Shown here: positions 1,777 through 4,060 of the stretch, in pieces
Layout: each line of letters opens with the position of its first letter
Position numbering within the stretch: position 1 is the stretch's first letter
Origin: Polaribacter aquimarinus
GTDB lineage: Bacteria; Bacteroidota; Bacteroidia; Flavobacteriales; Flavobacteriaceae
Assembly (NCBI RefSeq): GCF_003129485.1
Contig: NZ_QFFG01000001.1
Coordinates: 372,001 to 436,000, forward strand
DNA length: 64,000 nucleotides
Reading direction: 5' to 3'
Translations under genes and position numbers: made by a program
Notes under the pieces: generated by a model
Told to the model about the DNA's origin: nothing
The model's input: the letters and a program-made list of their open reading frames with translations, nothing else
The model's database searches: none

Positions 1777-3176
1777 TATATCGTATCTTTTAAGAAGTGA
1801 GCAAACTTCAAAACAAGTTCGTCATTATTTTTTGCAGCAGAAATTTGTAATCCGGTTGCTGTTCCTTGAGGTACTGTCAAAGTTGGTAATTGCCCTAAAC
1901 TAAAACCAACTGTGTAAGCATCTGACAAATACATTGCCAAAGGATCTTTTAAACTGTCTCCTATTTTTGGCGGTGTGCTAGGTGTAACCGGTGATAAAAT
2001 GATATCAACTTCTTGAAAATCTTTTTCAAAATTATCAGCAATTTGGTCTCTTAAATTCAATCCTTTTAAATAGATTTCATCAGAAAAACCTTGAGATAGC
2101 ACTTGATTTCCACCAACAATTCTACGTTTTGTTTCTTCAGAAAAATTTTCTGAACGAGTAATAGAATAGGTATCTTTTAAATTATCACCTTCAATTCTTG
2201 CTCCATAATTTGTTCCATCTAATCTAGATAAATTAGAAGCAGTTTCTGCCATTGCTAATGTATAATAGGTAGAAACCAAAGTATCTGATTCAAAGAAATC
2301 TAATTCTTTAACTTTAATTCCTTTCGCTTTAATTTTTTCTAAGGATGCTAAAAAATCTGACTTAACTTGAGCATCAATTGCTTCGCTTTCAATAAAGTTT
2401 TTAAAGTATCCAATAGTTTTAATTTGATCTGCATTTAAAACAGCTTCTTCAGAAATTGCTTTTGATTGATACGTAGTTTGATCTTTTACATCTTTACCAC
2501 TCATCACATTTAAAACAATTCTAATATCTTCTATTGATTTTGCTATTGGACCAACACAATCTGTAGAAGAAGCGTAGGCCATAATTCCATATCTAGAAAT
2601 TCTTCCATAAGTTGGTTTAAAACCATACACTTTATTGTAACCTGCTGGTTGACGAATTGAACCTCCTGTATCTCCTCCAATAGAAAAAACAGTGTAATCT
2701 TTAGCTACATTAACTGCAGAACCTCCACTAGAACCTCCACCAACTAACTCAGGATTAATAGCATTTTTAACTGCTCCAAAAATGGTGTTTTCAGAAGAAG
2801 AACCGTGACCAAAAGAATCACAATTTTCTTTTACTAACGGAATTGCACCTGCATCTAACAATTTTTGAATTGCAGTTGCAGTATAAGATGATTTATAGTT
2901 TTTTAACAATTCTGAACTAGAAGTAGTTAATGTTCCTTGAACCATATACACATCTTTAATTCCGAAAGGAATTCCTTCTAACAAACCAATTTCTTGCCCG
3001 CTTTCAATTTTAGCATCAACATTTGCTGCTAATTCTAAAGCTTTTAAATCTAAAAGTGAATTGACTGTATTGTGAGTGTTTGATTTTAATAAATCTAATC
3101 TATCTTGAACTAATTGAGTACAAGTGATTTCTTTGTTCATCATTTGTTGATGAATTTGATGTATTTGCGATTCCAT
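1776..3176 (-). CDS. gatA: Asp-tRNA(Asn)/Glu-tRNA(Gln) amidotransferase subunit A
   Basis: Glutaminase subunit of GatCAB, an amidase-signature enzyme that releases ammonia from glutamine for tRNA-bound Asp or Glu. At 466 residues it is near the usual family length of about 480. The amidase triad can be placed by spacing: Lys74 in GIPFGIKD, the cis-Ser near residue 149 in GGGSSGGSA, and the nucleophile Ser173 in GGDTGGSIRQPA. It follows gatC with about 2 bases between them and overlaps gatB/aspS by one base, so gatC-gatA-gatB/aspS is a tight operon. Expression is probably set by the attenuator in front of gatC. The identification is secure. Whether Asn or Gln tRNA is the main physiological substrate is inferred from the AspRS fusion and the Asn-rich leader. 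Confidence 0.96.
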   Translation of the reverse strand: MESQIHQIHQQMMNKEITCTQLVQDRLDLLKSNTHNTVNSLLDLKALELAANVDAKIESGQEIGLLEGIPFGIKDVYMVQGTLTTSSSELLKNYKSSYTATAIQKLLDAGAIPLVKENCDSFGHGSSSENTIFGAVKNAINPELVGGGSSGGSAVNVAKDYTVFSIGGDTGGSIRQPAGYNKVYGFKPTYGRISRYGIMAYASSTDCVGPIAKSIEDIRIVLNVMSGKDVKDQTTYQSKAISEEAVLNADQIKTIGYFKNFIESEAIDAQVKSDFLASLEKIKAKGIKVKELDFFESDTLVSTYYTLAMAETASNLSRLDGTNYGARIEGDNLKDTYSITRSENFSEETKRRIVGGNQVLSQGFSDEIYLKGLNLRDQIADNFEKDFQEVDIILSPVTPSTPPKIGDSLKDPLAMYLSDAYTVGFSLGQLPTLTVPQGTATGLQISAAKNNDELVLKFAHFLKDTI

Positions 3177-3178
3177 GT

Positions 3179-3445
3179 TTATTCTTCTATCACTTTAGAC
3201 ACTACCAAATATCCGTTCTTTTCTTTTGGGAAATTTTCAATGATGATTTCTTTTTCTATTGATGAACTATCAATTACAATATCCTCTCTTAAATCATCTA
3301 AAGAGACAGCGTTATTAGAAGTATTGAAAGAAGTATTGTTTGTTGTGTTTGCATTCTTAATCACCTCAAACAACTTACTTACAGTTTCTGATTCTTTTGC
3401 TCCTTTAATACTCGACAGAACGTCGACTGTCATCATTTTACTCAT
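3179..3445 (-). CDS. gatC: Divergent GatC-like amidotransferase subunit C
   Basis: An 88-residue protein immediately upstream of gatA. The C-terminal half (about residues 48-88) has the GatC pattern of a short LRED segment followed by a 'NxPxxxxGYxxVxKVIE' ending (here NFPKEKNGYLVVSKVIEE), the part that wraps around GatA. The N-terminal half does not look like the usual GatC helices. Residues 31-45 form an Asn/Thr/Ser-rich stretch with seven Asn. So this is either a rebuilt GatC with a new N-terminus or a fusion of a different small domain to a GatC tail. Position, spacing and C-terminal pattern support a role in assembling GatCAB. The start could also be Met4 or Met5. The first ATG lies 19 bases after the attenuator T-run. 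Confidence 0.72.
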   Translation of the reverse strand: MSKMMTVDVLSSIKGAKESETVSKLFEVIKNANTTNNTSFNTSNNAVSLDDLREDIVIDSSSIEKEIIIENFPKEKNGYLVVSKVIEE

Positions 3446-3464
3446 TATTCTAAATTTTTAGTCT

Positions 3465-3490
3465 AAAAAAAAACCTTCCAAATTGGAAGG
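3465..3490 (-). terminator. Conditional terminator of the gat attenuator
   Basis: A 7-bp GC-rich stem with a 3-base loop (CCTTCCA ATT TGGAAGG on the minus strand) is followed directly by nine T and ends 19 bases before the gatC ATG. There is no other minus-strand gene between it and the leader peptide, so it is best read as the attenuator's terminator rather than the end of an upstream gene. Confidence 0.8.
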
Positions 3491-3542
3491 CTTTATTTAT
3501 ATATTTTTAAACAACAACCTTCCAATCCTATAAATTAGGATT
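3465..3542 (-). promoter_or_regulatory. Transcription attenuator with competing hairpins upstream of gatC
   Basis: Reading the minus strand: arm 1 AATCCTA (3542-3536) can pair with TAGGATT (3530-3524); arm 2 ATTGGAAGG (3526-3518) can pair with arm 3 CCTTCCAAT (3490-3482) as a 9-bp antiterminator; arm 3 CCTTCCA (3490-3484) can instead pair with arm 4 TGGAAGG (3480-3474), followed by nine T (3473-3465), an intrinsic terminator. Arms 2-3 and 3-4 are mutually exclusive. A ribosome stalled on the Asn codons would cover arm 1 and free arm 2 for antitermination. One reaching the stop codon at 3530-3528 would cover arm 2 and let the terminator form. Confidence 0.78.
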
Positions 3543-3575
3543 ATTGAAATTATTATTGTTATTATTGATTATCAT
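3528..3575 (-). CDS. Asn-rich leader peptide of the gat operon
   Basis: A 15-codon reading frame, ATG at 3575 to TAG at 3528, encodes MIINNNNNNFNNPNL: nine Asn codons (eight AAT, one AAC) of 15. It starts about 16 bases after a TATATTTG promoter box and ends inside the first arm of a set of alternative hairpins that precede gatC. This is the layout of amino-acid attenuation leaders such as those of trp and his operons, but with Asn codons, which fits an operon making Asn-tRNA(Asn). An AAT trinucleotide run could produce such a peptide by chance. The coincidence with the hairpins argues against that. Confidence 0.75.
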   Translation of the reverse strand: MIINNNNNNFNNPNL

Positions 3576-3591
3576 TTCTTAAATTCGAGGT

Positions 3592-3599
3592 CAAATATA
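3592..3599 (-). promoter_or_regulatory. -7 box of the gat operon promoter
   Basis: TATATTTG matches the Bacteroidetes -7 consensus TAnnTTTG. It lies 16 bases upstream of the leader-peptide ATG at 3575, placing the transcript start only a few bases before it. No clear -33 TTG was found at the expected spacing. Confidence 0.55.
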
Positions 3600-3722
3600 T
3601 ACCAAATAAATAGACTAAGCACTATTTTTTAGTATATCTGAGTTTATTTACGAATTTGATAAAATTATGATTCTTAATTTATTAGTTTTTAAAATTCTAT
3701 TACAATTAAAGGCTCAGACTAA

Positions 3723-3878
3723 AATTATTTCAAAGAAATTAGATATTGAAAAGTGGTCATTCTCTAGTATCCTTTTTATTGGATAGCTATTGTATCAAAA
3801 AACAAGACGCTACTGTTAACCAAAACTAAGCTTTATCTTACAGTTTATCAGTCAACAGAAAAACTACTGTAAAATCTT
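3723..3878 (-). pseudogene. Decayed 3' fragment of the porin gene at 7007-8263
   Basis: About 155 bases align to the 3' end of the intact porin gene (7004 to about 7160) over the stop codon and the last 45-50 codons. Both share AATTATTTCAAAGAAATT, then AGATATTG versus TGATATTG, then TATCCTTTTT, and a common ending around CCGTAAAATCATAA versus ACTGTAAAATCTTAA. The fragment contains stop codons and small indels, so it is not coding. It has the same orientation as the intact gene and lies on the other side of the G8-domain gene. That makes it a remnant of a second porin copy or of a duplication that came with insertion of that gene. Confidence 0.8.
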
Positions 3879-4060
3879 AACATGTTTATTAATTATTAAA
3901 AACATCTTAGTTAAAAGTTTAAATTTCAATATTATACATAACTTCAAAAGGAATTTTTAATATTTTATTCTATAAATATTAAACAGATACAACAGGATGG
4001 TTGATTTGCAAACACCTTATATTTTAGAACTGACTCATTTTGAATGAACCTATTTTTAAT

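Follow-up and report, generated by a model that had tools for sequence, protein, structure and literature searches.

Upstream of a gatC-gatA-gatB::aspS operon on the minus strand of the DNA analyzed here (the window, a stretch of 64,000 nucleotides from Polaribacter aquimarinus) lies a short leader rich in Asn codons which very probably belongs to a ribosome-mediated transcription attenuator that is specific for asparagine and controls the cell's own asparagine-making operon. We observed the anatomy of the element, its conservation, its mutually exclusive computed folds and the gene content of the operon. The first-pass annotation of this DNA had read it as a case of classical attenuation by an Asn leader, and this reading is supported by the conserved codons, stop, arms and terminator and by an operon that is the sole recognizable route by which its owners synthesize asparagine; the regulation is inferred from sequence, without expression data.

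Anatomy and conservation of the leader

The features of the locus are given in Table 1. The consensus TAnnTTTG and its placement at -12 to -5 were taken from PMC9723704; from the box a transcript start near 3587 is expected. A promoter box of this type on the minus strand, a 15-codon leader with nine Asn codons, a 9-bp antiterminator option (complementarity of ATTGGAAGG with CCTTCCAAT), a competing terminator stem with T9 and gatC 19 nt further on had all been claimed in the first-pass annotation and are present, the terminator being recovered independently by a simple scan of the sequence. Among the 781 short ATG ORFs (8-30 codons) in the window the leader is the only one with more than six Asn codons.

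Table 1. Features of the leader and of the operon at the window locus.
Feature	Positions	Strand	Basis or remark
Promoter box TATATTTG, match to the flavobacterial sigma-A -7 box TAnnTTTG	3592..3599	-	sequence; kept in 12 aligned leaders
Leader ORF MIINNNNNNFNNPNL with TAG stop; 9 of 15 codons Asn	3528..3575	-	sequence; kept in 63 distinct leaders
Leader ATG	3575-3573	-	
Leader stop TAG	3530-3528	-	
Arm 1 (Asn codons, Phe codon and CCTA); partner arm 2	3536..3560	-	fold, arm alignment
Arm 2 TAGGATTGGAAGGTTGTTGTT; includes leader stop and antiterminator core GGAAGG (3523-3518)	3510..3530	-	
Arm 3 AAGCCTTCCAAT, core CCTTCC (3490-3485); common to antiterminator (2:3) and terminator (3:4)	3482..3493	-	
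Arm 4 TGGAAGG (GGAAGG 3479-3474) with T9 (3473-3465); intrinsic terminator half and tail	3465..3480	-	
gatC, 88 aa, divergent, Asn-rich linker; ATG at 3445	3179..3445	-	Pfam GatC 23.6 bits (cut-off 23), TIGR00135 2e-05
gatA, 466 aa	1776..3176	-	TIGR00132 1e-130
gatB::aspS fusion, first 592 of 1112 codons	1..1776	-	remainder beyond window edge, L003 3438-6776

The leader RNA folds more stably than its shuffled versions (z = -3.2). In this fold the Asn codons AAC-AAU-AAU pair with GUUGUUGUU 3' of GGAAGG, and the Phe codon pairs with GGAAG. The 1:2 hairpin is therefore longer than in the first-pass annotation, which did not describe this pairing of the Asn codons; since the Asn and Phe codons lie inside the 1:2 pairing, arm 1 is the sensing stretch itself.

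In a sample of 120 genomes of the family, one per genus, the GatB::AspRS fusion was found in 18 genera, that of the window and 17 others (79-88% identity); the remaining genera had a separate AspRS alone at about 40% or no match. The leader is present in 12 of the 18 fusion-bearing genera, and a covariance model built from those 12 leaders finds it in 41 of 398 genomes of the family (E<1e-11, one per genome, 26 genera), with gatC downstream in every case (39 newly fetched loci and the remaining two). It also precedes the operon in 33 of the best 80 named GatA relatives, the bearers including Polaribacter, Tenacibaculum aquimarinum, Algibacter, Hyunsoonleella, Flavivirga, Flaviramulus, Seonamhaeicola and Tamlana fucoidanivorans. 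The nearest relative of the window is Polaribacter sp. Z022 (GatA 96%). A lack of conservation of the Asn codons and the pairing arms in relatives would have spoken against the reading; both are kept, and so are the stop position, the terminator and the linkage to gatC, in 63 distinct sequences.

The operon stands without the leader in 6 of the 18 genera and in all Flavobacterium and Lutibacter operons sampled, which indicates that the leader is not essential to the pathway. On the GatA tree its presence is clustered, yet requires 12 changes, at least three of them on firm branches, so that the leader must have been lost or gained repeatedly.

The six leaderless operons are L022, L025, L027, L032, L037 and L038; the Flavobacterium and Lutibacter loci are among L092-L171. 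Most of the six, when viewed by eye, show a promoter-like AAACTTTCGTAATTTT near gatC in place of the leader, and inspection by eye, the only search made, revealed no other sensor in leaderless relatives. An Asn leader was likewise not seen upstream of asnS, the asnB-like gene or the standalone aspS of the window genome, nor before the housekeeping asnB of two congeners lacking the operon.

The 63 distinct leaders comprise 14-17 codons, 6-10 of them for Asn, and all end in TAG. One codon is an invariant Phe codon (TTC or TTT, 63/63). At codons -6 to -4 before it, Asn occurs 180 times out of 189, as 88 AAT and 92 AAC, and Lys, only one third-base change away, not once; at the final codon before the stop 16 different codons are found across the leaders. 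Synonymous swaps of AAT and AAC without Lys indicate that the coding for Asn, not the nucleotides alone, is under selection. Judged by these alignments, Asn at the leader codons is under purifying selection.

Compensatory changes in arms 1-4, which the first-pass annotation had proposed to look for, were found in 1:2 and 3:4. These arms have standard pairs in 98.1% of the aligned cells (39-59% for slid partners) and show four doubly changed pairs. The 1:2 protector hairpin, regulatory codons included, is paired in 97-100% of the cells, with compensatory change from C-G to U-A, and in three Polaribacter-type leaders a change of the Pro codon CCT to TCT is coupled with one of TAGG to TAGA. An A-U pair closes the terminator in 29 leaders, a G-C pair in 22. 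The 2:3 helix is paired in 89% of the cells; its core is too invariant to covary, and covariation therefore neither supports nor opposes the antiterminator.

Could the leader act on translation, or respond to general ribosome stress or to another amino acid, rather than to Asn-tRNA? The invariant Phe codon would fit such a role, as would the gatC start only about 20 nt past the T tract in most leaders; however, the lone Phe codon is explained by the pairing of UUC with GGAAG, the U-tract terminator and its competing stem are conserved, Asn makes up 6-10 of the 14-17 codons, and the product of the operon is Asn-tRNA, not Phe-tRNA. We consider this very improbable. Even less credible is an ordinary terminator or processing hairpin before gatC, with an AAT repeat that reads as Asn by chance: although AAT runs arise easily in a genome of 30.5% GC, Asn has been retained through synonymous changes, the TAG stop is constant, the arms covary and no other ORF of this kind exists among the 781 in the window; and although some relatives lack the element altogether, it lies between promoter and gatC in every case.

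The operon and asparagine synthesis

GatC, GatA, GatB and an AspRS are all encoded by the operon, with gatC barely above the Pfam cut-off. The gene content is as described in the first-pass annotation, except that what is written there as gatB/aspS is one fused gene of 1112 codons. The fusion protein consists of a complete GatB (residues 13-477) and a complete bacterial AspRS (residues 519-1110); no description of a GatB-AspRS fusion was found in the searchable literature. The GatC linker of about 23 residues, about 35% of them Asn, occurs in operons with and without leader (window 3179-3445, L092-L171).

Among solved structures the fused AspRS is nearest to the Pseudomonas tRNA(Asp/Asn) enzyme (4wj3/4wj4). 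Both have the motif RDHG, at a position which we take to matter for the acceptance of tRNA(Asn) by AspRS; RDLG is found in its place in the D-type enzymes of E. coli and Thermus, and RDKG in the genome's standalone AspRS. From this one motif, and without activity data, the fused AspRS is probably non-discriminating.

None of the 48 operon genomes (sets of 18 and 30) has housekeeping AsnB (called from a TIGR01536 match ending near position 385, the class being checked directly on one example per kind), and none of the 18 of them tested for AsnA has that enzyme. All 35 genomes without the operon, three congeners of the window genome included, have AsnB (33) or AsnA (2). The exchange of operon and asparagine synthetase is thus without exception in 83 genomes, which are related and not 83 independent cases; that the exchange with AsnB is also seen within one genus is telling. 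In one congener (G134) the AsnB match contains one in-frame stop, and this AsnB may be damaged.

AsnB-like proteins of another subtype (classed by match range, one checked directly) occur in 21 of the 48 operon genomes, and in 27 no AsnB homologue was found at E=1e-60. The window genome, which also encodes AsnRS and a separate AspRS, has one such protein; its score on the AsnB equivalog is 248 bits (cut-off 499), compared with 934 bits for the AsnB of an operon-less congener. Its gene lies downstream of apparent sugar-nucleotide cytidylyltransferase and 2-hydroxyacid dehydrogenase genes, a neighborhood that by inference resembles a surface-polysaccharide cluster.

No other route of asparagine synthesis can be recognized in the genomes that carry the operon. 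tRNA-dependent asparagine synthesis, with the AspRS specificity inferred, is the best reading of its function, and the claim that the operon makes Asn-tRNA(Asn) by transamidation gains support from the gene content and from the exchange with asparagine synthetase. Such synthesis has been shown biochemically in other bacteria with a dual route, and U1-A72 in tRNA(Asn) is reported for most bacteria that employ it (PMC4206432). That the operon serves Gln-tRNA formation or is vestigial, its product unmatched to the Asn codons, is barely tenable, for although GatCAB enzymes can serve both tRNAs (PMC4206432) and amidation by the operon is inferred, GlnRS, like AsnRS, is encoded in 26/26 genomes tested, so that GatCAB is not needed for Gln-tRNA, the fusion partner of GatB is AspRS rather than GluRS, and the operon exchanges with asparagine synthetase without exception. 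Because the operon stands in for asparagine synthetase, the Asn-specific leader would be an attenuator of asparagine biosynthesis whose product is made on the very tRNA that is sensed.

Folds and proposed mechanism

Of the features that define a ribosome-mediated attenuator, the locus has an intrinsic terminator between leader and first gene, the 1:2 protector hairpin and a short ORF with codons matching the operon product, the ORF being evident in the sequence and its translation inferred. Folds were calculated with simulated ribosome footprints for 62 leaders, one with a shifted stop being excluded. With the ribosome stalled on Asn before arm 4 is made, 2:3 formed in 62/62; with the ribosome at the stop, 3:4 formed in 62/62. 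The mean hairpin energies are -11.6 kcal/mol for 2:3 and -14.3 kcal/mol for 3:4, and at equilibrium 3:4 prevails despite the stalled ribosome in 61 of the 62 leaders, from which it follows that the choice must be kinetic.

Stalling, control of readthrough and the transcript start are inferred in what follows. RNA polymerase would initiate at the TAnnTTTG promoter and a ribosome would start on the 15-codon leader. When Asn-tRNA(Asn) is plentiful, the ribosome would reach the TAG and cover GGAAGG of arm 2, leaving the 3:4 terminator to form. When it is scarce, a stall on the Asn codons would place the ribosome over arm 1; arm 2 could then capture arm 3 before arm 4 emerges, with readthrough into gatC-gatA-gatB::aspS. 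Without translation of the leader, both 1:2 and 3:4 should form, ending transcription. The probably non-discriminating AspRS would make Asp-tRNA(Asn), which GatCAB would amidate to Asn-tRNA(Asn), and alongside the operon AsnRS would use ready-made asparagine.

Whether the leader senses amidation rather than charging of tRNA(Asn) is evenly balanced in our estimation. EF-Tu keeps Asp-tRNA(Asn) off the ribosome, so that full aminoacylation of tRNA(Asn) without amidation would still leave the ribosome stalled at the Asn codons. If so, the switch would read the last step of the pathway, and with it how much glutamine is available as amide donor; imported asparagine would also turn it off, via AsnRS. 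This distinction would escape a T-box, which senses uncharged tRNA.

Known attenuators and the meaning of the finding

Like the classical trp, his, leu, ilv, thr, phe and pheST leaders, the element has a short leader rich in codons for the amino acid of the pathway, a stop near arm 2, an antiterminator and a terminator that exclude each other in the computed folds, and then a biosynthetic operon; in pheST, too, a synthetase operon is sensed through its own product. It differs in that the codons are those of Asn and the target is an amidotransferase-synthetase operon. No Rfam leader family matches the gat leader region above threshold, the best match to Phe_leader being 27.8 bits (gathering 55) and on the opposite strand. 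A T-box riboswitch was rejected, as no T-box match was found in 3000-4000 at E up to 5.

The nearest functional precedent, as far as the available part of the literature goes, is the T-box on the tRNA-dependent amidation operon (gatCAB/aspS) of Clostridium acetobutylicum (Saad et al., 2012, 2013, cited in PMC4206432). There, too, the state of tRNA(Asn) feeds back on an Asn-making gat operon by transcription attenuation, but the T-box RNA binds uncharged tRNA directly, whereas in the gat leader a translating ribosome would read codons. In gene content and inferred Asn synthesis the owners of the operon resemble Deinococcus, Thermus and Bdellovibrio, which have AsnRS, GlnRS and GatCAB with a second or non-discriminating AspRS, lack asparagine synthetase and form Asn on the tRNA (PMC4206432). 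They differ from the dual-route bacteria of that survey, in which an extra AspRS is listed for Deinococcus-Thermus, Actinobacteria and Clostridiaceae, in having an AspRS fused to GatB besides a standalone AspRS, and an operon preceded by a leader.

A survey of 2010 presented a Firmicutes case and stated that, until then, leader peptides had been demonstrated in no groups other than Proteobacteria and Actinobacteria (PMC2965389). The 2021 transcriptome of Flavobacterium psychrophilum, a member of the same family, gave strong clues that operons for amino-acid biosynthesis are preceded by leader peptide attenuators; in the part of that study available, neither an Asn leader nor a gat operon is named among the candidates (PMC9723704). 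An Asn-specific leader or a leader-peptide attenuator on a gat operon was not found in the searchable literature or Rfam. A comparative survey of attenuation, reportedly published by Lopatovskaya et al. in 2010, could hold related predictions. The mechanism is classical; its specificity for Asn and its target appear to be new.

Weak hits of the covariance model point to similar leaders elsewhere in the Bacteroidia. An Ile-rich leader MNRNVLHIISIIIIAIISRR with terminator precedes ilvD (L079 1768-1900), and in other families of the class tandem Phe/Tyr-rich leaders, each with its own terminator, precede pheA (L174 and L177, about 1440-1850). A further locus from another family (L173 1530-3144, genome G659) has two tandem leader-terminator units, the Asn/Phe/Tyr-rich MKTNFNNNFYFNPKN and MMNFYFNNNFNYATPPGGD, before asnA and then pheA; this may be a single operon that responds to several amino acids. 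In these cases the leader residues agree with the operon products, which provides an independent test of how we read the gat leader. The weak hits L175, L176, L178 and L179 were rejected as plain terminators, and L078 as a terminator without leader.

If the proposal is correct, asparagine joins the amino acids sensed by leader-peptide attenuation, and tRNA-dependent asparagine synthesis gains a feedback loop read by the ribosome. With the leader one could also ask in vivo whether the ribosome treats mischarged Asp-tRNA(Asn) as a charged tRNA. The fusion operon explains how about 15% of the sampled genera of the family (18/120) do without a housekeeping asparagine synthetase, which it replaces while AsnRS is kept, and ribosome-mediated attenuators would be varied in the Bacteroidia, where they have been little studied.
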